From Rhizopus arrhizus (lineage: Eukaryota; Mucoromycota; Mucoromycetes; Mucorales; Rhizopodaceae): 64,000 nucleotides of DNA. Made by a program: the position numbers and the translations under genes. Below are positions 4,119 through 56,280 of the stretch, piece after piece. The notes below the pieces were generated by a model, which saw only the letters and a program-made list of their open reading frames with translations, had not been told where the DNA came from and made no database searches. The stretch covers positions 496,001 to 560,000 of the forward strand of contig JAKZZE010000012.1 of the NCBI GenBank assembly GCA_024220505.1, given 5' to 3'. Position 1 is the first letter of the stretch. Each line of letters begins with the position of its first letter.

Positions 4119-4779
4119 TGTTTTTTATCTTGTTTATATATTTTGTTTAATAAAAAAAGTAACCATTAAAAGTAAAAAGCTTCTGAGGATGATTAAATAA
4201 ACCTCTCCTTCTTTTTAATATCATCACACTCAACCTACTCCATCTTTACCTTCAGAATCAATTCATTAATAGCAGATAGAAGGGATAAAGTAAGCAGAAA
4301 GCACCTTTGATCTTTATTTCCACTGGCTTTATTCAATATCTCAACAGTCGTCATCTTTTCTAACTTTTGTAAATCAATCCTTGTCATTTAGAACAAGCCT
4401 TTGATCCCTTCAAGACTTTAACTGCTTCACATCATTCTCTACTTGATCTTCAAAACTGTCAATGCTATAAAAACCTTGGTTTGAAAGAGTAAAAGAGACA
4501 AAGAACCCATATTGATTGAGATGATAACTACTATCATTTAATACACTGTATTATTAACAGTCTACTTTAGTCTGTGGAAATAAGCACGTCAAGTCTACTT
4601 TAAAGACGCCAGTGAACTCCGAAAAGTGCACTTCAAAGGACAGTTTAAGCTGTTTCATGTGCTCTCTCTCCCTCCCCCAATTTTTTTTTTTCTCTCTTTT
4701 TCTAAATAAAATTTATTTTTCTTCTAGTCTCTCTTTTTTTTTTTTTTTTTCTTTTTTTCTTTGTTATCTATTTATTGTT
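4119..4779. other. Intergenic, no gene seen
   Basis: Spacer between the dioxygenase and the tetraspanin. Long T runs at 4681-4760 precede the next start codon. No RNA gene or ORF with family-like features was found. Confidence 0.5.
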
Positions 4780-5878
4780 ATGGAAGAAAGAGCAATGTAT
4801 ACACATTCACAAGGAAAGAGATTAAGAGGATATATGACGACTGTTCATCTGTTCACAATGGTATTTATATATACTTTAAAGCAAAGACTAAACATGTTTT
4901 ATAGTTTATTGGTCTCTTTATAATATCAATAGGTAACATAATAAATAAATAAAATTAGACTAACAATCATATTAAGGTGCTTATCATATCAATTCAACAA
5001 CAAGTTTAACTCTATCTTTATTATTCATGTGCTTGGGTGGAATGATGACAATGATCAGTTTTATTGGATCATTTGGAGTACAACTTGAACACATTGGATT
5101 TTTAAATACATACAACACAATCACAGCTATTTTATTATTATTTGAAATTGGTAAAAGAATATTAGCTTTATTCTATTTATTTATCTTTATTCTAGTGATT
5201 ATTTCTATTATATATGATTATAGATCAAAGGTAATTAATAGAAAATGACAGAAAATGAAAAAGTTGGTTAAGTTCAAAATAGATTGATCCTTATGCAAGT
5301 AAGCTGTGGGATTTTTTCATAAGACATGATCCACAGTTCATAAAAGATTTAGAAGAATTGTAAGCAAGAGAGAGAGAGAATATGAGACACATAAAGGGGG
5401 AGGATTAATTACGCCTATTTAGATCACAATGCTGCGGATATGATTCAGTTATAGATAGAGCTGTGCCTGCTAATTGTTCCTTGTCACTCAGTGTAAACAT
5501 AGGCTGTAAAGAGTCTGTGATATCACGAGTACAGGAATGGCATCATTGGATCATTCTCGTTCTCACATTTTTACTTGTGCTTCAGGTAATCAGGTCAAGG
5601 CATAATAAAAGTAATTAAACTCTTTATAGTTCTTTTTATTAATACTATCAGTCATAATGAGCTTAATCGTTAATCGTCAATTACGTGAAGAAGAAACTTA
5701 TATTTCATTATTGAACAACAATCATTATTATCACCATCGTCCTTTGCTAAATGAAGGACCTAGTACAAACAGTGGATACTTTGGTAGACATCGAGCTAAT
5801 TTTCAAATACCAAAAAGTCACTTTATACCAAAATATGGATCTACACCTTCTACTTCTTCAGCTACACATTTTGGTTAA
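4780..5878 (+). CDS. Tetraspanin-like four-pass membrane protein
   Basis: Supported exons are about 4977-5230, 5283-5359, 5423-5585 and 5630-5878. Translation gives two hydrophobic segments (around SLLFMCLGGMMTMISFIG and LFYLFIFILVIISII). A large extracellular loop follows with the tetraspanin hallmark CCG (SQCCGYDS) and two later cysteines (ANCSL, IGCKES). The last membrane span starts WIILVLTFLLVLQ and a short cytoplasmic tail ends ATHFG. Fungal tetraspanins such as Pls1 act in polarised growth and appressorium function (family knowledge); orthology is not shown. The first exon is uncertain: ATG at 4780 is the best start, but the junction to 4977 needs an AAG acceptor and a weak donor, and the first membrane span is poorly defined. 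Confidence 0.75.
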
Positions 5879-6069: not shown

Positions 6070-6816
6070 ATGTCAATATCTTTAGGTCCATACTGGGCCT
6101 CTATTACGACTTCTTTTATTAGTATTGTTGGACTTTATATGGTTTTGACTGGTACAGGTGAAGAGTTTAATGTTGGTAGAATACTTCAACTTCTCCCTAC
6201 GTTTGGGCTCTGACCGGTATGGGCCTTTGTATTGGTCTTTCTGTTACGGGTGCAGCTTGGTAACATGAGTAAATGAATAGATATTATTTATTTTAATTTG
6301 TTCCTCAGGGGTATCTTTATTACAGGTTCAGCACTTTTAGGTGGTGCGGTAAAGACGCCTCGTATTCAGTCTAGAAATTTGATTTCTATCATTTTCTGTA
6401 AAGTAATCGCTATTTACGGTGTCATCATGGCCATTGTTTATTCTGCTAAATTAAGTGATGTGCCTGCAGATCAACTATATACCACTTCCAACCTTTTCAC
6501 TGGTAATTTAGTGTGATGTCAGCTTATATTTATGTGAACACGTCTATAGGCCATGCTATCTTTTGGGGTGGATTGACTGTCGGTGTCTGTAACTTATTGT
6601 GTGGTTTATCTGTAGGCGTAACAGGATCAAGCGCTGCTTTAGCTGATGCTCAAAACCCTGAATTGTTTGTAAAAGTATTGGTTGTAGAAATATTTGGTTC
6701 AGTACTCGGTCTATTTGGTCTAATTGTTGATTTATTGATTGTGAGTTCTTTATCAAAAAAGATACAATTACTTACCTCTTTATCATTAGACTGGTAAGAC
6801 TGCTGATTTTCGTTAA
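6070..6816 (+). CDS. VMA16: V-type ATPase proteolipid subunit c'' (Vma16), frame broken by 1 nt
   Basis: Proton-translocating membrane subunit of the vacuolar ATPase. Exons 6070-6259, 6309-6502, 6550-6740 and 6790-6816. Recognisable parts are [40 protein letters not shown] with the proton-binding Glu position occupied by Lys (yeast reads FCEV), and [12 protein letters not shown] with the second-hairpin Glu kept. Exon 1 is one base short: the frame reads FNVGRILQ, then SPYVWALTG only after a +1 shift near 6190, and exon lengths total 602 instead of 603. Restoring one base would give the conserved TSPYVWA start. Either a sequencing error or a recent mutation. The Lys at the Glu position should also be checked against reads. 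Confidence 0.88.
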
Positions 6817-6825
6817 AAGATTGTC

Positions 6826-6877
<52 letters not shown>

Positions 6878-17121: not shown

Positions 17122-20100
17122 AAATGCAATTGAGCATAGAATAGTAAATGACTTTTGATATAGCTTTGTGTATAGATCTTATAAATACATTTAAATATTT
17201 CACGAATATGAGTAACTTTTCCTTCTGCAAATATCCACTTGTTTCTTTTCGTGAACTTGGGGGCCATCCTTAGGGTTTTACGCGTTGAAATTTAATAATA
17301 TCTGTAAATAGGATTCTTAATCAAGGAAAAGCTGAATCACAATATAAGTATTGGCTCTGACTTTGACTTTCCGAGCTTAGTCTCTTAAGAATTGCACAAA
17401 TAGGATTTTTAGGTGTAGTTTGCAGGTGATATCTAAATGAGATTAGGTTGGTTTAGTTCTCTTAACCTATCGGCCACCACATATTGTAAATAAGTCGATT
17501 TATAGGGAATAGTAAAGTGATTTATGTAAAATAAATAACAAACATAAAAAAAGGACAATAAAAACATTTGCTTTCAAGAAAATTAAATTTGGATTCATAA
17601 TGGAATATTGAAGCTTTCATAAAGACAATCTGTATTTATTCAAAAATAAATAAAGATAGAATTTAATTATGAAAGTGAAATTTTCAAATTATAAGCTGGT
17701 ACATTATGAGAATAAATAGGGTCGGTTTAAAAAGAATTTTGTTCCAAAGAAGTATAGCTTGTGGTAAGTAACCACCGGTTGCTATAAACTAGGTCAATCT
17801 GTGCTTTAAGTAAAGTGAAATAAAAGGGATTACAATGTTATTTTTATCCACCAAGTGGCTCCTTGTTCTTGCTAATGGAAAAAAGGACAAAAAGAAAAGG
17901 TTATATTTTGTTGATAAAAAAACATGATTCGTTTTTAGGGATAATAATGAAATCTATTATATATATCTGATTTCTGTAAGATTAGGTGGAATTGCTCAGG
18001 GTCGTAGTATATACGCTATAATAGCTTGATTTACATTTTAGTCTTGCATAAACAAGTCTTTTCTAGACAGGAACTACTACCAAATCCTGTTTGAAGTACA
18101 TCGGTTCTGTAAAGATAATAATTATAATTTTATTTGAGTTTTTAAAAGATACAATGAACATAATTGGTTTCAAAGTATTTGATCCTTAGTTGTAATAAAA
18201 AGGATTGATGAACTTTCAAAAGATGCAAGAGAAGTAGATAATTTTTAGTTATATTACAATTTTCATAGATTTTATGAATGGCTAAAAGATTGAAATGACT
18301 TTTGCTTTTGGCACATGCTTTATTTTTAATGCATATTTCAACTTTATGCTATAACGTCTCTGATTTCCTATTCAAACTCTACATGAGCATAAGGGTTTCT
18401 TGTATAAAATAAGAGGTTATAATGAAAGTAACTTAGTTTCAAGGGAATTGCATGTAATTGTAAAGGGAATCAAAAGTCTTTATAAAAATCACTTGATTTA
18501 TTTTAAAAGATAAGAAAATAAACGGGTTCTTCAAATATCAAAAGGCTAAATGCTTACCTGTTTTCGAATCTGTACATGGCCTTGAAGTTAACGGTTGATC
18601 TGTGGAAAGCAAATCTAAATCTGTAAATAATAGGATTTTCCAAGCAAAAAGAAAAAGTTGTAAAAGGCAAGGCCAAATTCTTTACAATACCTTATAATTA
18701 TATGTTTCTTCAGTAAGCCAAGAATCAAAGACTGTACTGTTACAGTATAATAATCAAGCTTTAAGTGTTGCCGAGCTTAATAATAAGTATAAAAATAAGA
18801 TTGATAAAATAAATATAACTTGTGCTGAGTGCTTGGGTGACCATCAGATCTGTATAAGATCAAATTTAACTGGATAAAATGAGAAACATGTATAAAGATT
18901 TTACGAACATGTGAATACTTCAAGTGAGTTTGTAAATAACACAATAAAAATAAAAGAACAATAAAGTATAATAAGCTATGCCTGTTTATTTATGCATACA
19001 AGCACTTGGGTGTATGTGCTTGATCTTCATTCCTTTGGAAGTTTGTTTCTTATTGAGTTCGTTACAACAACAATGGTTTTTTATTGATTAATGTTGTGAT
19101 AACGTGTTGCTATTAGGTATTTGTAGTGTGAAATAGAGTAGTTTTGGAGTATGTTTGACATATGATCAAATATTTATGTAGAGTTTGGTTCCAGAAATTG
19201 TAATATGTTTTAGTATAAGTTCACTTGTAAAAACTGACCACGAAATTCTGTCAAATATATTAAACTGTTTTAAATAAAACAAAAGAAAAACATTAAAGAG
19301 ATTATAATGAAGTATATTAGCTTCAAAGAACTTCTTATTTTTTATGTTAAAATGAAAAGAAAAATAAGAGATAATTTGTCTTTCAAAAGAATGTTTATTA
19401 ACAAAAAGGATAAGTTGAGAAAAATGTGAAAACAGAAAATGAGATTTTGAAAAGAGATAACAACATAGTGAGTCTTCATAAATTTTTAATTTTTAATTCC
19501 TGTATGATAAGTTCGTGATTGTAAAAAAGTATCTTTCATTGTATTATTTTCAAAAGACTATAGTTCGACTATTTTATTGTTGTTCATATATGCTATACAA
19601 TACATATGCTTTACAACATTGGGTTATGTTCGATTTGTGAAATAAACTTCTGGACCATTCATTTGAATTGTAGAATTGGTAATACAGCTAAGTCTTTAGG
19701 TTTAAAAATATAAGTTTTTTTAATAGAGTTTGTGTATAAAAGGATTGGGAGTAAAGATAGTAGTAAGATCCGTTAGTTACTTATAATTCGCGAATCTACT
19801 TTAAGTATACCAAGCTTGTTTTGAAAGATAAAGTAATTTGATTCGAGCAAAAAGGGATACAATGATAATTTTTGACTTCAATGAAGTAAAAATCAAAAAG
19901 TTTCAATAATAAAACACATTTAAGATTTGTTTGAATAAGGTAGGATATTAGTAGTTAAAAGTGAAGTGGAAGATGAAAAGATTACATATTTTTATATAAT
20001 ATTTGAGTGCTGTATAAGAGAAAGGTAGAATTACTACTTTTGTATTGGCTTGTAAGCTAAGGGTTCTAAAGGGATTAATTTGCTTGATAAAATAATTATA

Positions 20101-21600
20101 AGGTTAAATTTGCCTTATAAGGGGTTGTATGTTGTAGAGTTTAAGCAAGCATTTAAAATAAATAGTGTTACATTGTAATATTGTGTAGATTTATTGGATA
20201 AGTAGATATAAAGCTTGGTCTTAAGGTTAAGATCGCTTTGTAAGTTATTGTTCAATATAGAATTTAAGCGGAAACTTGATAAAGTAGTGCCCACCAGATT
20301 TTATATGTAAAATAATATAAAAGAAAAGTAAAATAAGAGATCAAGAACTTTATATAAGTAAAGTTAATCCTGTTTATTGAGTAAAGTATAAGGATATAAA
20401 AGAATTTGCTTGAAGATTTTATATTGATTTGACAATGCTGAGGATATTTATATAACTTTTTTTTTTTGACTTCTTTCATTTTCTAACAGTGCTCGTTTAT
20501 CGATCTAGCTAGAAACTGTGTGACACTGTAAAGTTTGTAACTTGGTTAAGTTTGTAGACCTTGAGATATGAAATTTTGATAGAATTTGAGTATAAAAGAG
20601 GTTGAGGATAAAGATAATAAAGTAGATTCGCTTGTTATAAGTGACCATCAGACCTTGTTGAGTTGATCAAACTTGTTTTAAAACGTAAAGTAGTTTGATT
20701 TGAATAAAGAATGTGATACAATGAGTATTATTGACTTCAAGGGACTTGACTTGTTTGAGTCAAAGGTGAAGATCAAAGAGTTTTAATAAAAAAAAGCTAC
20801 TTGAGGTTTATTTGGACAAAAGGTGTTTCAAATTTATGTAAAATAAAAGATTTATAGTCAAAAGCAAATCGTATAAAAATTGAAAAGGATAAACCCTTTT
20901 TATACAAATAATAAAAGATTATAAAAATAAGAAAATGTTATTTGCATAACAAAAGTTACACATTTAACTTTTGGATACGAGTTTATCGAAAGTTTCTTGG
21001 TTCAACAGAATTATTTCCCAAACCTTGATTACGACTGTACTGACCACCAGATGGTAAAGTAATCAATTTGAGACAAAATAATGTTATTTTAAATCTGGTT
21101 GTGGGTTGGGTGAGTGTTTTATATAAAAGTTTCTTGAAATTTTAAAGTAAAGTACTGTAGTGACCACCAGATCTTGTTAAGTAGATCAAACTTGTTTGTA
21201 ATAAGGTAACTTGATGAGAGTTTTTAAGAATGTTTACAATGAAGATAATTGGCTTCAAGGGACTTGTCTTGCTTGTGTTTTAAGAGTGTCATACCAAAAG
21301 ATTCAGGGATAAAGATACTTGATTTATTGGATAAAGTATATTTAAAATAAGTAAAGTTAAGATATGTAAGTCAAGAGAAGAGTAGTAAAATAAAAATAAA
21401 AACTTGTCTATTTTATAGACAAAGAAAGATCAGGTTTCATTTTGATATAAAGTTCAAAAAAGAATAAGGTACAAAATTAAAAAAAATCACAAATCGCAGC
21501 CATTGCTGGTGTTAATGCTGTAATTTTTGTTACAACAATATAATAGTTTTTTTTTTTTTTTTTTTTAGCTTCTTTGTTAAAACAAAATAATAGAAACAAA
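17122..21600 (+). repeat. 4.4-kb ORF-free tract with diverged head-to-tail two-box modules
   Basis: No coding sequence is visible on either strand. Instead a module recurs on the plus strand. Box A resembles TGACCACCAGATCTTG...GATCAAACTTG and box B resembles ACAATGAAGATAATTGG followed by CTTCAAGGGACTTG. Clear A boxes start at 18838, 20642, 21041 and 21161, with weaker ones near 17770, 18073, 19235, 19783 and 20288. Clear B boxes are at 18151, 18419, 19304, 19859, 20718 and 21236. A-to-B distance is about 69-78 bp in five modules (75 and 76 bp in the two best). A TATAAAAG-like stretch often lies upstream of A (19733, 20588, 21121). Much of the tract has G exceeding C on the plus strand. Function unknown. 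Confidence 0.7.
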
Positions 21601-21643
21601 GGTAAACCTTTACAATGTAATGTTGCTCAGAATGAAAAAATAA

Positions 21644-21714
21644 TGCGTCCTCGGGGAATCGAACCCCGGCCTTCACCTTGGAAGGGTGAAATTCTACCAT
21701 TAAACTAAGAACGC
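21644..21714 (-). tRNA. tRNA-Gly(TCC)
   Basis: On the minus strand the 71-nt sequence folds as a cloverleaf. The acceptor stem GCGTTCT pairs with AGGACGC (one G-U), the D arm is TTTAATGGTAGAA, the anticodon stem TCACC pairs with GGTGA around loop CTTCCAA with anticodon TCC, and the T arm is CCGGGGTTCGATTCCCCG. Discriminator A; CCA is not encoded. A run of six T follows the 3' end on the minus strand, a Pol III terminator. No intron. Confidence 0.95.
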
Positions 21715-22057
21715 TTTTCAGTTGAAAAGTTGAATTTTAAAACCATTTTATTCATATAAAATTACTATATATAGTAGCTTCGTGAACGGAGTTGCGTTTG
21801 TGTCATCCAATAAGATGTTTGTTCGTCGAATTCAATACCCAAAAATGGAGCGTAGCTTTTTTAGTTTGTGGAAAATACGGTGTATGATTTGTTAGTGCGT
21901 ATTTATGAAATCTTTGAGAAGCTCAATGTTTTAAAATTATCTTAGAAAATGAATTATTATTTTTTTAAATAAAAATAATTTAATAAAGAAAAAGAGTTTA
22001 TGCGTTGATAAACCATACCATTGTACTCTATTACAAATATTTTCATGAGATAGTTTT

Positions 22058-47659: not shown

Positions 47660-49117
47660 GTTTGTAATTAAAAGATATTTTAAAGGGAAAAAAGTATCAA
47701 AATTTCTCTAAACGAGATGTGATTCAATTACTATTTATATTCATGTTATACTAAAGGAGATAAAAAGGGAAAAATAGAGGTGATAGAAAAGATGTGTTTT
47801 TAGTTCAAGGAGAGGCGAGGCTTTCCTAGTTTTATGGAACAAAAGAGGAGTCTATGATCTTGTCGTGTTTATTCCTATTTTTCTCCTTATGTCATGCATT
47901 TGCATATATCCTTTTGTATCTCCCACAGTAATACTCCCTAACTATTTACTCCTAATATTTTGTGTATTTTACTTGATCTATTTGCCCTCCTTTTTTCTTT
48001 TTGACAGAAAAAAAAACTCAACGTTTCATTCCTTTTTCTACATTCATCAATGTATATTTATTCTTTAGTAATTTACTATTTCACTCCTTATATTTTTGCC
48101 TTCATATCTTGCTTTATTAAAAATAAGTTTCATTAAATATAAGTCAATAATAAATAATTAGGCGGTAATATACCAAGTAAGAACACTAACCAAGAAATAA
48201 ATAGTAGAAGGAGGTAATAAATAAGTCTTCTTCAAACGTCATTGCATGTTACAATTTTGCAGATCAGAATCCCCTTTTCAATTCTTTTTTAAATATCGAA
48301 ACTAAATCATACAAGTAAAAGAGGATATCAACGGCTTAAAAAATACATTCTCTTTATTTTTCTTTTAGTTGTGTTATATTATTATTTTGTCATGATTACT
48401 TGTCACATTCAAATTTTTTATGAGCATTACCAGCATAATCATCAGGAATAGTTGACAGTCCGATAGACAGGGTCAGATGTTAAAGGGAAACAAATCAAGG
48501 AGTCATTATACAAATATGATCTAGTTAATATCGGAAGAGAGAAATAGATAAAGTATCTAGATTGGTTATTTGAAATTAAAATAAACTTTTATTCTTTGTA
48601 ACATTTCAACATGTACAAATCGTTTATAATAACGCTTTCTCTAGATTAGTATGCTTGTAGTGGTCATGAAACACTTTGCTAACCTTAATCTCAATCCACC
48701 GATCAGGGTAGCAAAGCTTTAGTCTACGGTTAAGTAAAAACCTTAAATGGTTATGGACACGTGAGTCAATTAGGATTTTAAGGGTATTTTGTATAGCCCT
48801 TTATTTGTTTTTTTTAGACTTCATCCAAATTTTAGCATGTTGTTTTATATGATCCACAACATGCAAAGACCTGGAAAAGCTGCCACCTTATTGACTTGAG
48901 TACAGCTTTCTAATCATCGTGTGCTTCTTTAGCAATGCCTTATAAAAACAGTTTATCGCAGTTACCTAGTACTATTGCATGTGGCTTTCCATGGACTGCT
49001 ATTCTTTTAGTTTCTATGCAATTGATGACACCTCACTACATGTAACTTTTAGTAATTCAAGAAAGGCACATAATTTTAAGTCAATCAATGAATTGAGTTA
49101 TGTTGTAATATTAAGTA
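47660..49117. other. 1.4-kb intergenic stretch, no gene seen
   Basis: Begins with the promoter of the Kre9-like gene. Two plus-strand frames (47865-48068, 48979-49248) lack domain features; the second runs into the mobile element. The TA target duplication of that element is at 49116-49117. Confidence 0.45.
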
Positions 49118-49757
49118 CAGTCAAACCTATGGAATTTGGCGTAAATGAAAAAATAAATGTCGAATTTCCAAAAATGATTGGCCTTTCTCATTTTTTACCC
49201 TTGAACCAGAAGGGGTTTTTTCTTAACACTCACTTCCAAACGGATTGAACTGGTCCGGGCGGACACTTATTTGTTATATATTTTTTAGCGCTCAAATGGA
49301 TCATAAATAAATAAAATATCATGTTTAAACAAAAATGATTGGCTGAAATAAAAAAGTAATCGTCGCTAAGCTTAATTTTTTTGTCACTTAGGTCAAGACT
49401 GATTGTCCCACAATGGCTAAATAAAATTGGCGGAAGGGATGTCATTTATGTTTGGCGTTAAAATTATATTTTTATTTGAATGAGATATATGTACTGATAC
49501 TTTGAAAACTTTAACCATTTTTTTTTGAAAAAGCTTGCTCGTATGTGTGAGGTTAAATTGGCCCAAAAAAAGAAACTAGTTTGGTCAACTGTTTGAACTT
49601 AAATTGCCCAGCTTTTCGAAAGTCTTCAATAGGGTTAACAATACTTTATTATTTTTTTTAAGCCCGAATGGGGCAAGTTTAAAAACTGTTCTTAGGATTT
49701 ATGGATGGCGGTGCGAAAGAGAGTAACGGCAGGTGAAAAACATACTAATCTAATAGA
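49118..49757 (+). repeat. Left 640-bp terminal inverted repeat
   Basis: Matches the reverse complement of 54055-54694 with no length difference, including homopolymers (a run of nine T against nine A) and a 71-codon frame identical on both sides. Within it AAAAATGATTGGC occurs twice about 160 bp apart (near 49171 and 49333), possible subterminal transposase-binding repeats (inference). The match ends at TAATAGA. Confidence 0.92.
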
Positions 49758-51564
49758 GCAATAGAGGAGGAGATAAGCTAAATCATTAACTATATGGTAG
49801 TGTGGGTTCATGTTTATTTCAATTTCAACTGTTACTGCAATTATTCATAATTTATTTTATTCAATGTTCTACAAATCTATTTGTAAGCACTCGATTGAAT
49901 TGTAAGAGGATAGTGTTAACTTTAATTTTTGCTATGTATCGTGTTTGTTTAGTATAGTGATACATTTAATCTTCAATATTTTATTACATATTTTATATTT
50001 TTAGAAATAACAATACTGTATTTCTTTCCAATATACATTTTTATCTTGAATTATATTTCTTCATCGGTACTGTCTTCATTTTCATCTTCTTTTTCGTTTG
50101 TTTCGAACGTAAGATCAGAATCAAAATATGATTTTACAGCTGAAATATATTCGTCAATATTAATAATCTTTTCTTTCGATGCGTTTTTCTGTCCTTTCTT
50201 TATATTGTCCATTTTAGAGCTAGTTGTCTTGTTGTATTCCGTTAATATTGTGTCAATATTATTAATCATTGACTAGCAAATTAGAATGAAAAAGATCAGA
50301 AAGAGAAGACAAAACAAAAAGCTAAGTAAACGCCCTCTAAAGTAACTAGGACAGTTTTAAATGGTCTCACTTACCTCAACTAAGCCAAATGCATCAATCA
50401 ATGCTTTTACTCCTCCGTTCTTAACTTCACGGTTTGTACTTGAATAATTAAATGATGCTAATTTTTGGATAGTATATACTTTCTTGTCAATAATATTCAT
50501 ACCATACACATTGCAAGTTAGACCCATAATCTGTACAAAAGGAAAAATAAAAAGTTTAATAGCAGATGGCGGGATGTATGGCAGGCGTCTTAAAGCAGCG
50601 TTCAAATGAGCCTTGGTTGCTAAAGCAGACTTCAGAAAGTCGAAATAGACTTTGTGAGGCGCTATTGCAGATTCGCGAGCAAGTTCTCCAGTTAAAGTGT
50701 CTAAGGCTTCGGTATTGATATCTTTAATAACAATTCGAAAATTCAAGTTAAAATGTAAGTGCAACAACGATAAATGAGGAGACGTTGTATCGCCCCTATA
50801 TGAGTAGCTTTCATTAGCGTGTATGAATTTAGTTATTGAGTGCAGTTTATAACTTACCACTGAACAAAGTATTGATTTGGATCAAAAAATAACTCTATGA
50901 TTGGAGCCCAGAACTTTGCAAAAAAAGACATTTCAGAAAATTGCTTTTGAGATGCTGGAGTGAATAAGACCGGTTTGTTTACAATTTGATCTAAACTATG
51001 TAGTGTAAACAGTAGGTTATTATTTAGATTAAATGATTCAGTATTACAGCTTACATATGGACGTAAATCATCTTTACTCCTCTTTCAGAGTTGCTGGTAT
51101 ATTTGAATGCCTCTATATCCCCTAAAACTTTTTTTAAGGTAGTGTGATTATGGGCCTAGAACGTGTGTTCAGTTTTATACAAGTTCATTTCTAGTACCTT
51201 GTATTATATATTTACATTCTTTGTGAGTTTATTCAAGGAATCAAGATCTCTGACCACTTTTTCAGTTTTCAACTCGAATCTGCTTTTTAGTCGGTCCAAG
51301 GGTATTCCAATCAACTTCAGTTGGCTTTTGTTACTAAAATCAATAATTCCATTGCGTGACAAATACGAGATGCACTTATTCTTCCAATCATTTAGCTCCA
51401 CCTCTTCTGCAACTTCCAATACACGAGAGCCTAATGTGCCTTGTAGGCCTGCAAATATGATACAGTCGTTCCACTTCCAATGTGAGGATTTTATAAAGAA
51501 AAATACGGACTTTCAAGTAAAAATTGGGGGACTTACCAAATAAAATTCACTGATTGTTTGAAGT

Positions 51565-52915
51565 TCATTTCGTGGATTGTGAGAAAATCATTTCACACTC
51601 TATTTTAAATAAGCAATTATTAACTTGGCTCTTTGAATGTTGAATTATATTTTCAAGGTGTTGAATAGGAACTTCATTCGCAGTATCAACAATTCTTTCT
51701 TGTAGAGTTTCGGTATCTTTGAGCTTTTGACGTCTAACTTTACGTTTAACTAATGCCCAAAATTACTCGATGGGATTGAGCTCTGGCGAATATGGGGCAA
51801 GATACACACACTTATAGTCTTTATTTCTCTCATTGAGAATAGCTTCTATTTGTTTATGAATTGGTGCATTATCCATAATGAATTAATACCCTCTCATTTG
51901 GTCATACTTATCTAAAATATCCAAGGTTTCTCGCAAGAATCGCATGTAATGACCAGCTGTTGTGCCTTTTGGACCATCTTCATTAGAGGCTGCAGGATTT
52001 TTTCTTTTTTTACCCCTCTGTATCTTTCTTATTTTTGGAGGTTGCTTTGGTACACGAATACTTAAGTTTATCACTCCTACAGAAGATATAGCACCAAGAA
52101 TAGTATGAGAAGGTGCTTTTGTCGTAGGAGTGGTGGTCACTGCCATTTGTCCCTAGTAGCCCAGGCTCTATTTGGTTTCAGATTAATATCAAAACCAGCT
52201 TCATCAATAAAAACGCAATTTTTGGAAAAATCCATATCCGTATTGCTCTATTTGACGACCCAGTCATAACGGCTTTGGATATTATCCACGTTTGCTCTTG
52301 CCTCCGGCCAACATGTAGTTTGCTTCAAGCTAAGATTACAATCATCTCTCATAAACTCGTGTACTCTTGACTTTTAATTTCGAGACCAGCAAATTTGTTT
52401 GTGAGCATGTCGACAGCATCCTGAATGTAAGCATTTGGATCATTGTCAAAAAATTCAATTAGACTTTGCTTATGCTCATCCTGCAACTTATTTTTAGGTC
52501 TGTTTTGACTATTTGTTTTCTTCTCAAGAGTAAAAGAATCTGGATCTTCTTGTAGCTTCTTCCACCAAGTGCGAGCAGTGCTTTCTTTGACATCAGCTCT
52601 TCGGGCAGCTGCAGCAATTGACATTACATGTTGGATTTTGTAATGAAAAAAAAAGCTCTTTCGAGGCTAGCGTATATTCCATATACTTCTTTGATCGGCT
52701 GGCTCTTACATCCATGACGATGTCTTTGCTTTGTTTAGATTGTTTTTGATCCGTGAGTGCACTAGTCTTTTTTTTTCAAGGTACGAATCGGGATTAACCA
52801 ATTGCCTTACAGCAAAAGGGTCTGGTTTCTCATCCACAACGTCCATAGCTTCATGTCCAGCCTCATCGAAAATATATCCTTGGCCATTTTCTTTCAGGAA
52901 TACTAGTTTAGACAT
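51565..52915 (-). pseudogene. Tc1-type transposase, inactivated
   Basis: Cut-and-paste transposase. N-terminus MSKLVFLKENGQGY; helix-turn-helix MSIAAAARRADVKESTARTW; first catalytic Asp in FIDEAGFDINLKPNRAWA; second in FIMDNAPIHK; Glu in YSPELNPIE. I count 34 residues between the second Asp and the Glu, the DD34E spacing of Tc1. Lesions: a frameshift after FAGLEIKSQ, stops after WVVK and DKWQ, a stop before FIMDN, and a stop where the Gln of PIEQFW should be. The C-terminus (FSQSTK) lies inside the left inverted repeat. Confidence 0.88.
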
Positions 52916-53054
52916 TTCACAGTTTTTTAAAAATAAAGTGTGAAATGATTTTCTCACAATCCACGAAATGAACTTCAAACAATCAGTGAATTTTATTTGG
53001 TAAGTCCCCCAAATTTTATTTGAAAGTCCGTATTTTTTTTTATAAAATCCTCAC

Positions 53055-53106
53055 ATTGGGAGTGGACATTGGGAGTGGACATTGGGAGTGGACATTGGGA
53101 GTGGAA
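53055..53106 (+). repeat. 13-bp tandem repeat, four copies
   Basis: ATTGGGAGTGGAC repeated four times (last copy ends AA) inside the right inverted repeat of the nested Tc1 element. The left repeat has one related copy (CCACTTCCAATGT), so the 39-bp length difference is a local expansion. Not CRISPR: no spacers. Confidence 0.92.
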
Positions 53107-53450
53107 CGACTGTACTATCATTGGAGCAAACTTTAGTTTTTCTTTTCGGTAGTATTCGTGAGACAGATCGTAATCTCTTATATCTGTCCCTCTAAATGCA
53201 GTTCCAATAGCTGCCTTTCTGAGTTGGTCTGTTCTAATTGATTCAGTATTTCTTCGTCTGTGGCCATATTGAAAACCTGCTTGCAACAAGTATTTTATTT
53301 TTTAGCAAGTTCAAAATACAAAAACGAAATAACAAGTATAATTACAAAAAAAAAAGTGTGGCGTAGACGAAACGTCTGTATTAACGTCATCATTTATTTT
53401 GAAGTAGGCGCTGAATTTTTCACAAGTTTACTACTGCTAATGCTCATACT

Positions 53451-53650
53451 GGGGCAAAGTCCCCTAGCGAAGTGGTCAAGTTCTTTCTGCTGGATTAGTC
53501 TCTCGTCTGGTGGCACTAGTTCCAATCTCCATGGTCGTTTTCTGTTTGTTTGTTCGTGGGTTTAAGCCCTGTTATTAAAAAATGTTTCTTATGATGATCA
53601 GCTAAAAATGCGGCATCCGAATAAAATCCTCATACAAAAAAAAAAAAAAA
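53451..53650 (+). mobile_element. SINE copy 2 (inside the long-TIR element)
   Basis: About 200 bp, sense on the plus strand. Head GGGGCAAAGTCCCC, A-box-like TAGCGAAGTGG (53465-53475), B-box-like GGTTTAAGCCC (53559-53569), tail of about 14 A. Flanking direct repeat GCTAATGCTCATACTG at 53436-53451 and 53651-53666. It differs from copy 1 at roughly ten positions plus A-run lengths. It interrupts the element's internal gene. Confidence 0.88.
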
Positions 53651-54054
53651 GCTAATGCTCATACTGATTTTATAACTACTACTTTTACTATTAAACATCC
53701 AATGAGTACTCCTAGGCGAAAGGTATGATCATCATAGCATACTTGCTTAGGCACAGAAACTAGCTCTGTGTGAAACGATCGATGGATAGTACTTATGGCT
53801 CTTCTATGTGGTTCTCTGCATGGTTTGCACAACCTAGAATCTGTAACTTGGAAGATGATGCTAGCTTTCAAGTGAACACCGCTAGAAATGGTGACCATTA
53901 CGATCGTTAATGGGCAGATTCTGTAACCGCTCTTTTTAAAGTGATATGTTTTATTAAAGCTTCAGCTCAAACTTGTTAATGCAATAACATTCACGTAACA
54001 AGCTAAATTCATTGGTCAGAAAAACTGCTCAAGATCTACACTCTCAATACACGT

Positions 54055-54694
54055 TCTATTAGATTAGTATGTTTTTCACCTGCCGTTACTCTCTTTCGCA
54101 CCGCCATCCATAAATCCTAAGAACAGTTTTTAAACTTGCCCCATTCGGGCTTAAAAAAAATAATAAAGTATTGTTAACCCTATTGAAGACTTTCGAAAAG
54201 CTGGGCAATTTAAGTTCAAACAGTTGACCAAACTAGTTTCTTTTTTTGGGCCAATTTAACCTCACACATACGAGCAAGCTTTTTCAAAAAAAAATGGTTA
54301 AAGTTTTCAAAGTATCAGTACATATATCTCATTCAAATAAAAATATAATTTTAACGCCAAACATAAATGACATCCCTTCCGCCAATTTTATTTAGCCATT
54401 GTGGGACAATCAGTCTTGACCTAAGTGACAAAAAAATTAAGCTTAGCGACGATTACTTTTTTATTTCAGCCAATCATTTTTGTTTAAACATGATATTTTA
54501 TTTATTTATGATCCATTTGAGCGCTAAAAAATATATAACAAATAAGTGTCCGCCCGGACCAGTTCAATCCGTTTGGAAGTGAGTGTTAAGAAAAAACCCC
54601 TTCTGGTTCAAGGGTAAAAAATGAGAAAGGCCAATCATTTTTGGAAATTCGACATTTATTTTTTCATTTACGCCAAATTCCATAGGTTTGACTG
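54055..54694 (-). repeat. Right 640-bp terminal inverted repeat
   Basis: Partner of 49118-49757. The outer end reads CCATAGGTTTGACTG then TA. Near-perfect identity between the two repeats contrasts with the decayed interior. Confidence 0.92.
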
Positions 54695-54710
54695 TACATG
54701 AATATATTTA

Positions 54711-56280
54711 TTAAATTTTAGCAAATACATGGCCGTAAGCTATATCCATTCGTAAAGCGAGTAAAAACAGAGCTGCAGCCATATTCGCGGAACCCGCAAA
54801 TTGAATGGCGGCCGTCCAATCAAAAGTATCACGTAATAATCCAACTATTGGTGTACCGAGCAAATCGCCTGCTACAGTGGCCAGATAAACCATACCGATC
54901 CCTCGCTGAATGTTTTCTACGCCTACTATATCTCCTGTGATCACGGGTAATAACGATACAAAGCCACCAGCTGTCAATCCAAAAAGGATACTAAAAGTGA
55001 TAAATGAGCCAGGACTTGAAGAGAATTGCCACAGAACCATGGTAAGTATAGCTTTTTTTTTTAAAAAAAAAAAAGATTAGATTAAAAAGATGTTGCGTTT
55101 TGACTTTATTATTATTTTTACCTCCCACAAATGTACATGACAGTAGAGCATTGAGCTTTCCAAACTTATCAGCAAGGTATCCTAAACTAATACGGGCGAA
55201 TGCATTAGTCGCTGACATGACAGAGATCATTGCTGCTCCTGCAGAGGTACTCATGCCAACATGTTGAGCATACTGAGGAGCCAAGAAAAAGGGCGCTAAA
55301 TAGCCAAACCCTGCAAAAAAGGCATAAATAAAAAGCAAAATAAACCGCAGGTTAATGAGGCCCAAGTCAACAATGTGATACCATTTTCCTTGTCCGTTAT
55401 TGGAAAGTGGTGGCCTATACCGGGATGTGGCAAGTGCAGTAGAAATGCAGAGTAAAGTAAACGAGATGGCACCCAAGACGCGTAGTGAGTCACGATAGCC
55501 GAGGCTATCAATCAAGTATTGAGCCAAGGGGGCAAAACAGACACCACCGACCCCTGACCCACTGATGGCCAGACCGGTCGCCAGCCCTCTTCGGCTCGTA
55601 AACCATTGGGATGGTAGTGTGATAGCAGGCGTAAAGACAAAGGCACCTCCAATACCAGCCAAGATGCCTTGTGTCATGTAAATTTCCCAAAGGTTCGTAG
55701 CAAAGCTAGCGAGTATCAGGCTAACAGGACAAAGTATTGTACCAATCATCATCGTTCCTCGAAATCCTAGCTTTTGAATCACAGGTGTGATGAATAATCC
55801 AAAAGCTAGTGAGAGTGCGCTTGATGACGTGCCTACAAATGCGATCTTGAATAAATCCGTTCGTCCAGCAAAGATATCTTCTACATAACTAATATCATTT
55901 ATTCATAAATTTTCCTTATGCACCAACTTGCTTCATTTCACTTACAGCTTTTGATAGTTTCCCCAAGAGTACATGATTCCATAAACAACAAATGTCCCCA
56001 GAAAACAGGATATGACAGCAAGCCATCCAGGGTTCCGTAAGCCTTCTGTGTGATATGGTTGCTGTCTAAATACTTCAATTTCTTTTTCATCTTTTTCTTC
56101 ATCAATGCTGTGATGCGTCCTTTGCCTAGACATTGTTCGAGAAGCTATTTCAAGAGATTCTAAAGTAGTAAGTGGTGCAGATTTCGATGCAAGTAACTCT
56201 TTCTCTTTATTATGTGATTGTACAGTCTTTTCATCTGTTGTTTCTGATGCTAAAGAGTTGCAGTCTTTATCTTTTTCCAT
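54711..56280 (-). CDS. MFS monocarboxylate-type (MCH/MCT) transporter
   Basis: Twelve-span plasma-membrane transporter of the monocarboxylate porter family. Exons 55946-56280, 55122-55888 and 54711-55051 give 480 residues. A hydrophilic N-terminus of about 80 residues (start MEKDKDCNSL; an upstream in-frame ATG at 56445 is discounted because the added sequence is leader-like) precedes GWLAVISCFLGTFVVYGIMY (span 1). Then come GLFITPVIQKLGFRGTMMIG, GLATGLAISGSGVGGVCFAP, the large mid-loop (SRYRPPLSNNGQGKWYH), LGYLADKFGKLNALL and the C-terminal half with GFVSLLPVITGDIVG. The yeast relatives Mch1-5 include a riboflavin carrier; the substrate here is unknown. The inserted element ends 16 bp beyond the stop. 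Confidence 0.92.

Follow-up and report, generated by a model that had tools for sequence, protein, structure and literature searches.

Structure of the element

The window analysed here, a 64,000-nucleotide stretch of the Rhizopus arrhizus genome, contains a mobile element that is bounded by TA target-site duplications, assigned to neither strand, at 49116–49117 on the left and 54695–54696 on the right. Its ends are terminal inverted repeats (TIRs), or arms, of 640 bp, the left at 49118–49757 on the plus strand and the right at 54055–54694 on the minus strand, with a spacing of 4.3 kb between them. Alignment of the left arm with the reverse complement of the right gives 640 identities in 640 positions. 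The 643-nt arms returned by the inverted-repeat tool are these 640 bp together with the flanking TA and one base shared by chance. Both termini read CAGTCAAACC, and the two outside flanks are unlike each other. An earlier note on this DNA had described inverted ends of equal length with TA on each side and Tc1-type termini, all of which hold; it had called the repeats near-identical, and their identity is complete.

The interior is occupied by a cargo gene of unknown function, at 50048–53267 on the minus strand, with limits drawn by eye from the reading frames and the relative P0015. The gene contains introns, as the earlier note proposed, and is in pieces; the largest gap in it is due to a nested Tc1-like insertion. 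It has no Pfam match. There are 22 homologues, 12 of which are named, and these 12 all come from Mucorales. For the cargo relative P0002, structure prediction from the 22-row alignment gave a mean pLDDT of 47.5. The nested element that splits the gene is decayed and 1650 bp long (51463–53112, minus strand, with TA at 51461–51462 and 53113–53114). It has a 143-bp TIR at 95% and a transposase match with two stops, from a candidate search in which 150 of 1270 candidates were scored. Between the cargo gene and the right arm lies a dispersed repeat of 213 bp that ends in poly(A) and looks SINE-like on visual inspection (53438–53650, plus strand).

No intact transposase was found in the interior of the outer element, in agreement with the earlier reading, and transposase remnants are confined to the nested element. 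Because only these remnants are present, the outer element is filed as non-autonomous. The evidence supports describing it as a non-autonomous element of Tc1 type, flanked by TA and carrying a cargo gene.

Anatomy of the arms

Each arm is a mosaic composed, in order, of a Tc1-like terminus, a 5'-truncated LINE between two copies of the 13-mer AAAAATGATTGGC, further Tc1-like sequence, and part of a repeat from a second Tc1-like family. The terminus, which begins with CAGTCAAACCTATGGAATTTGGCG and is assigned to family A, spans 49118–49168 (plus strand; right copy 54644–54694). It matches the terminus of element C3 at 84% over 51 bp and that of C7 at 87% over 68 bp, and it carries an unoccupied copy of the landing motif, AAAAATAAATGTC, at 49149–49161 (plus strand; right copy 54651–54663). 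The first 13-mer, the target duplication on the 5' side of the LINE, is at 49170–49182 (plus strand; right copy 54630–54642). The LINE fragment follows at 49183–49330 on the plus strand, 92.6% identical to about positions 4671–4817 of the LINE reference, and the fragment of the right arm (54482–54629, minus strand) has the same truncation point. The 13-mer on the 3' side is at 49331–49343 (plus strand; right copy 54469–54481). The family-A subterminal region then continues at 49344–49436 (plus strand; right copy 54376–54468), colinear at 74% with another terminus in the genome, L052. This terminus lacks a LINE at the corresponding place and represents a paralogous empty site of the LINE.

Farther inward, 49489–49680 (plus strand; right copy 54132–54323) resembles a TIR from family B, which is also Tc1-like, an assignment based on short matches of 68–90%; the terminus of family B itself is absent. 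The symmetric position of the family-B pieces inside family-A arms would be expected if a family-B element had simply nested precisely in the middle of a palindromic family-A MITE with the LINE already in both halves. This account is unlikely, as both arms lack the family-B terminus at one and the same point, a feature not expected of plain nesting, and the MITE would itself require copied arms. The long identical ends most likely arose when the LINE inserted into one of them and the lengthened arm was afterwards duplicated at the other. The arm owes its length to the addition of the target-specific LINE and of the piece of another transposon's TIR, and to the copying of the arm.

Distribution of the terminus in the genome

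The earlier note had proposed searching the genome with the TIR and looking for a Tc1 transposase bounded by the same ends. A whole-arm search (40 of 106 candidates scored) gave 42 matches, of which two are the arms of the window, one covers arm positions 1–42, and 39 cover only positions 64–270 and are LINE 3' ends. The 640-bp TIR was dropped after this search as the mark of one dispersed family. The 12-base pattern TACAGTCAAACC has 25 matches across the genome, including two in the window element, versus 3 for the reversed control. TA is included in the pattern, so its presence at these 25 matches is by selection. Six matches without visible similarity past the 12 bases were set aside by eye (L031, L032, L040, L046, L048, and L049). 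A 31-bp terminus allowing up to three mismatches has 24 genome matches versus 0 in the control; the window ends are too diverged to be among them. TA starts 21 of the 24, and two of the three without it are the C6 pair, with ends that carry GA and TC instead.

The two patterns combined yield nine convergent pairs. One of them, the 1.8-kb pair C7, has the terminus in common with the window element and encodes a DDE_3 transposase (PF13358, E 6.6e-20) in a gene that is in pieces. A search of its own genome with the joined flanks of C7 found no empty site; besides C7 itself, it matched satellite-like repeats located on C7 and C9. Elements of the Tc1-like group reach 19.3 kb in this genome and hold accessory and captured genes.

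The earlier note had raised the prospect of a distinct class of long-TIR, cargo-carrying transposon, in which the 640-bp repeats would be the functional termini. The TA-flanked identical arms with a gene of unknown function inside agree with such a class, but it is very improbable. In pairs that share the terminus, the matching ends can be as short as 37–46 bp (one limited by the stretch compared), the arm holds pieces of a LINE and of another family's TIR, and TIR positions 229–640 have no full-length copy elsewhere in the genome, with partial matches of at most 133 query bases. The distinct class is rejected, given the terminus held in common with DDE_3-encoding C7 and the short-ended pairs.

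The LINE and its target motif

The full LINE encodes ORF1 and an ORF2 with RVT_1 and an AP-type endonuclease, and it is similar to L1 ORF2p chains in the PDB (E 9.7e-24). It is target-specific, inserting at one motif, AAAAATRAWTGKC, with a target duplication. Among LINE matches of at least 90% identity that reach the 3' end, the motif is found (at least 11 of 13 positions) at 17 of 21 visible 5' junctions against a random expectation of 0.6%, with the highest score among twelve positions around the junction taken for real and random sequences alike; L003, L007, L023, and L030 fall below the threshold. The 3' flank reaches it in 28 of 31 rows (random 0.055%), with L007, L017, and L020 below. 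These counts include both window arms, and when the arms are counted once they become 16/20 and 27/30. Taken by itself, the 3' count does not distinguish the target from the tail of the LINE, so the target claim rests on the 5' flanks together with the match between motif variants. Within a copy the variant is the same on both flanks, and in 20,000 permutations the observed sum was never reached.

The same motif marks Tc1-like transposon ends. The comparison took the first 100 motif sites in a list of 273 (C1–C10) and 150 of the 152 transposase matches. Transposase matches no more than 5 kb away lie inward of the motif in 25 cases and outward in 2, with 1.7 at random; motif copies flanking LINEs are included, and the lengths of C8 and C10 in the random control are guesses. 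Neighbouring sites among the same 100 of 273 are convergent in 13 instances, divergent in 0, and on the same strand in 8.

Copying of the arms

The identity of the two window arms extends across the LINE truncation point, the LINE's 92.6% match to its reference, and the family-B piece. As the mosaic is the same in both, one arm was copied onto the other after the mosaic had formed. Other loci have long arms of differing lengths at 99.2–100% identity. Locus C41 has inverted arms of 4152 bp, 100% identical, with the LINE and an equal internal loss of ORF2 in both, and C40 has arms of 3021 bp, 99.8% identical, also with the LINE in both. In C2a and C3 the LINE is at the right end only and the matching ends are 44–45 bp. 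In C2b each end carries a LINE piece, and the two pieces differ.

An assembly product such as a hairpin read or collapsed repeat could yield arms that match perfectly over 640 bp, as in the window, or over 4152 bp, as in C41; we give this explanation hardly any credence. The differing outer flanks, together with the 25 versus 3 occurrences of the 12-base pattern, make chance or a simple hairpin artefact a poor explanation, and a simple palindromic artefact is rejected on these flanks, the TA on both sides, the 4.3-kb spacing, and the other long-armed loci. Least probable is that two LINEs inserted independently at the same motif in TIRs that were already long; the motif is on offer in both arms to a motif-directed LINE and C2b has two different pieces, but the independent insertions are refuted by the private differences common to both window arms (truncation point, departures from the LINE reference, and family-B junction) and are opposed by the ORF2 loss shared within the identical arms of C41.

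Comparison with known systems

Tc1/mariner–IS630 elements typically have CAGT-type ends. The window element resembles them in these ends, in its TA duplication, and in the DDE_3 transposase of a member with the same terminus; it departs from them in its long mosaic arms, and its group in sizes up to 19.3 kb with accessory and captured genes. Members of the P superfamily have a P-type transposase and a longer target duplication, whereas the window element has TA on both sides and a relative with DDE_3, which places it outside that superfamily. Within the P superfamily, Galileo of Drosophila willistoni offers a close parallel: another transposable element inserted in one TIR was transferred to the other and so belongs to both, and coding sequence was recruited into the TIRs (PMC4168063). 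The window element likewise has a foreign fragment in both TIRs with shared junctions; unlike Galileo, it is a Tc1/IS630 element with a TA duplication, in a fungal host, with a LINE directed to a TIR motif. KolobokP is a DNA transposon whose ends are likewise extended and composite-like (PMC9587614). It differs in having direct repeats and a homing endonuclease, where the window element has inverted arms with a LINE. The finding suggests that arm extension of the Galileo type also occurs in the Tc1/mariner–IS630 group.

Transposon-targeting LINEs are known. Tx1L/Tx1D of Xenopus laevis, a LINE with an AP-type endonuclease targeting a DNA transposon, is similar to the Rhizopus LINE in both respects. 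The Rhizopus LINE differs in its fungal host, in targeting a short subterminal motif common to more than one Tc1-like family, and in being present in both arms by copying. Grem-LINE1 of Mucor is a two-ORF LINE of Mucoromycotina with an AP endonuclease and reverse transcriptase (PMC7377519). It is like the Rhizopus LINE in these features, compared by description only, and unlike it in being described as pericentric, with transposon-end targeting not mentioned in the part of the report available (PMC7377519). Among titles and abstract openings, with subscription literature mostly outside, no report was met of Tc1 ends serving as LINE targets in Mucorales; nor, in the literature searched, was TIR-to-TIR transfer combined with a transposon-targeting LINE in Mucorales Tc1-like elements.

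Proposed history and significance

The element is very probably a non-autonomous transposon of the Tc1/mariner–IS630 type presumably moved in trans by a DDE_3 transposase of its family, its arms being lengthened and then made identical. Family-A termini may first have come to lie at either end of a family-B element with the cargo gene inside. The LINE, directed to subterminal AAAAATRAWTGKC, would next have entered the motif of one arm as a 5'-truncated copy with a 13-bp duplication. Gene conversion, or template-switching repair of an excision gap, would then have copied the mosaic arm to the other side; the two pathways look alike in the window sequence. The nested Tc1-like element split the cargo gene in a step that may have come before, between, or after these. 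The recent move in trans or gene conversion suggested by the earlier note is borne out as to equalisation of the arms by copying or gene conversion; the move in trans we infer.

One genome holds a series that runs from a LINE at one end, with a short TIR, to a LINE in both arms, with a long, near-perfect TIR. It could explain why some transposon inverted repeats extend for kilobases and are nonetheless identical. It is possible, if rather doubtful, that the LINE belongs to a lineage living in transposon ends, with an endonuclease that would have evolved to recognise a subterminal motif putatively bound by Tc1-like transposase. If this were true, the outer terminus would stay working and the LINE would be carried along by cut-and-paste, and arm copying would double the LINE to two copies per element. 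DIRS-type elements, located at the same motif, would on this reading make it a shared landing pad. The finding points to a retrotransposon specialised on the ends of DNA transposons, with one mobile element parasitising another.

Termini of the Element

Equal-length inverse repeats had been claimed in an earlier note for both ends of the window element (49118..54694), and its arms, 49118-49757 and 54055-54694, match without a single difference (640 of 640 positions). The TA-flanked, Tc1-type ends also proved correct, with TA on either side and termini that read CAGTCAAACC. Genome-wide searches covered 50.26 Mb in 41 contigs. The 12-base terminus TACAGTCAAACC, a pattern of which the TA forms part, occurs 25 times versus 3 for the reversed control. 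The 31-base terminus, at up to three mismatches, has 24 matches versus 0 for the control and starts with TA in 21 of the 24, which exclude the window element's own ends as too diverged.

Both searches combined give nine convergent terminus pairs. The window element is the pair on contig C4, with an end match of 640 bp at 100% (642 including TA). The others are C2a (C2:1478950-1498268, 19.3 kb; end match 44 bp, 97.7%), C2b (C2:1625245-1629378, 4.1 kb; 46 bp, 97.8%), C3 (C3:1052338-1063410, 11.1 kb; 45 bp, 100%), C7 (C7:626578-628393, 1.8 kb; 127 bp, 99.2%), C41 (C41:1185596-1199620, 14.0 kb; 4152 bp, 100%), a pair without TA (C6:713119-715622; 42 bp, 90%), and two pairs whose end matches are bounded by the stretch compared (C37:2024464-2030160, at least 37 bp, 94.6%; C37:513404-521449, at least 197 bp, 99.5%). 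The C7 element contains transposase pieces (DDE_3, PF13358, E 6.6e-20). Because the terminus recurs in convergent pairs elsewhere in the genome, the element withstands the objection that its TIR might never be found at other TA-flanked loci.

An MFS transporter gene, with PF07690 in 54991-55902, occupies the minus strand at 54708-55902. Read by eye, the frame stops roughly a dozen bases past the right TA, which places the element directly downstream of the gene. G+C is low (0.26-0.28) at window positions 18001-22000, where GC skew rises to as much as 0.38 and a tRNA-Gly lies at 21644-21714. A separate 5.1-kb Tc1/IS630-like family, with copies 94% alike at C7:1247001-1252700 and C2:768501-774300, codes for pieces of a transposase along with an ORF of 821 aa; this ORF is Fanzor/TnpB-like by eye and scores below the cut-off against Pfam PF07282 (E 0.028). 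A passage of PMC3627910 describes Fanzor1 in Mariner elements.

Composition of the Arm

Judged from its sequence, the arm is a mosaic. The family terminus takes up TIR positions 1-51, and the 13-mer AAAAATGATTGGC stands at positions 53-65 and 214-226, enclosing a LINE fragment with 92.6% identity to the LINE 3′ end. Along its positions 31-138, terminus L052 aligns with TIR positions 213-319 at 74% and, being without the LINE at this colinear place, is a paralogous empty site of the LINE. At about 372-563, short stretches (68-90%) match the TIR of a second Tc1-like family, found in L096/L097 on C1, L057 on C40, and L059 on C12; that family's own terminus is absent from the window arm. The cargo gene of the interior probably belongs to the second family, since its relatives adjoin the second TIR in L057 and L059. 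The cargo relatives in L058 and L060 gave no match to this TIR piece within the stretch compared.

Target Specificity of the LINE

The reference LINE is the 4.8-kb C3 copy, with ORF1 and a 1098-aa ORF2. In the near-identical C2a copy, the 1098-aa ORF2 contains RVT_1 (E 7e-28) and the AP-type endonuclease Exo_endo_phos_2 (E 3e-14), and is similar to L1 ORF2p across both domains. LINE copies share a common 3′ end and vary in 5′ truncation.

The flanks indicate that the LINE is target-specific. The 13-base 3′ flank agrees with AAAAATRAWTGKC at 11 or more of 13 positions in 28 of 31 rows (random window positions, 0.055%), as does the 5′ flank in 17 of 21 (0.6%). Both flanks within a copy carry the same motif variant (212 of 260 positions in 20 copies), a sum reached in 0 of 20,000 permutations. 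The 3′ misses are L007, L017, and L020, and the 5′ misses are L003, L007, L023, and L030. L023, the right member of the C40 pair, still counts among the misses; since the bases preceding its LINE recur in the left end, L072, a deletion of the 5′ LINE part seems likelier there than a different target.

Genome-wide, the motif has 273 occurrences versus 73 for the reversed control. Of the first 100 of the 273 sites, 25 have a transposase match within 5 kb on the inward side and 2 on the outward side (1.7 expected), and pairs of adjacent sites are convergent in 13 cases, divergent in 0, and same-strand in 8. This inward excess and convergent pairing argue that the motif marks Tc1-like element ends, and of more than one family, since near-full LINE copies in L072 and L076 sit behind a different terminus, TACAGTG.... 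Among 19 classified family termini, six others having been set aside beforehand, LINE sequence lies within 1.5 kb of 12; four have a transposase match without LINE, two DIRS-like sequence, and one none of these.

DIRS-like sequence starts directly at the LINE's subterminal motif in C3:1052338-1058.6k, C2:1478950-1483k, L087, and L089. The C3 copy matches RNase H and, weakly, phage integrase; the others were assigned by similarity and eye.

Probable Copying of the Arms

The arms read as copied. Those of the window element are identical through the LINE truncation point, the LINE's differences from the reference, and the second-family junction. The C41 arms, 4152 identical bases each, share the same internal ORF2 loss, where the match jumps from residue 695 to 934. 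LINE sequence is present in both inverted arms at C40 (3021 bp, 99.8%), a locus with provisional outer ends. In C2a and C3, this LINE is at the right end only and the matching ends span 44-45 bp, so that, set against the window element, C41, and C40, they read as a before-and-after series. Either gene conversion or template-switching repair would fit the observed arms.

Outside this family, L096/L097 show 99.7% identity for at least 290 bases, up to where the compared stretch stops, reaching by eye the apparent transposase frame start; a 32-aa piece of that frame has no Pfam match. Inspection of the 150 transposase matches listed found eight inverted equal-score pairs on the same contig, 1.7-28 kb apart, and no direct-order equal-score pair within that range. 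The matches at C6:1061257/1064695 are nearly equal in score and in direct order.

Cargo and Other Loads

The cargo gene runs from about 53267 to 50048 on the minus strand and has no Pfam match. Its 22 homologues, 12 of them named (Rhizopus, Thamnidium, Backusella, Sporodiniella, Mucor), are led among the named by P0007 of Rhizopus arrhizus (98%, covering 43% of the query) and P0015 of R. delemar (95%, covering 29%), which makes a host from the R. arrhizus/delemar complex most likely. The predicted fold of a cargo relative was too poor in quality for use. A nested, decayed Tc1-like element of 1650 bp (51463-53112) splits the gene, and P0015, continuous across the insertion point, is a protein-level empty site for the nested element.

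At the nested element's right end (53053-53104), the 13-mer ACATTGGGAGTGG is repeated four times in tandem. A 213-bp dispersed repeat with a poly(A) end (53438-53650), SINE-like by eye, also occurs in L026 and the C2a element; ARAGORN (bacterial code) found no tRNA in it. The C2a element further carries a second LINE-like ORF pair with a zinc knuckle in the first ORF. The C41 load includes part of a histidinol dehydrogenase (PF00815, E 5e-45), probably a captured piece of a host gene. This C-terminal fragment lies at C41:1191.9k-1192.5k, positions 6350-6856 of the 14-kb element.

Relation to Known Systems

The Xenopus elements Tx1L/Tx1D exemplify a LINE targeting a DNA transposon. In Galileo, a P-superfamily transposon of Drosophila willistoni, an element that inserted in one TIR is passed on to the other and ends up in the two of them (PMC4168063). 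Transposons are listed among non-LTR retrotransposon targets in a passage of PMC5035012, and, according to part of PMC4640811, target-specific families belong mostly to the early-branched, Tx1, and R1 groups. The single steps, insertion into transposons and arm extension, are thus already known from published systems; the literature searched yielded no Tc1-like elements that combine these steps, with a LINE that targets the TIR motif. In R. delemar, a single gene model (P0119, 771 aa) fuses a DDE_3 transposase end with LINE reverse transcriptase, hinting at a transposon-LINE association in another strain. L033, L045, L051, and L054/L055 contain diverged LINE relatives, with protein identity of about 52-76% and junctions read by eye only, and the association with transposon ends therefore spans LINE lineages.
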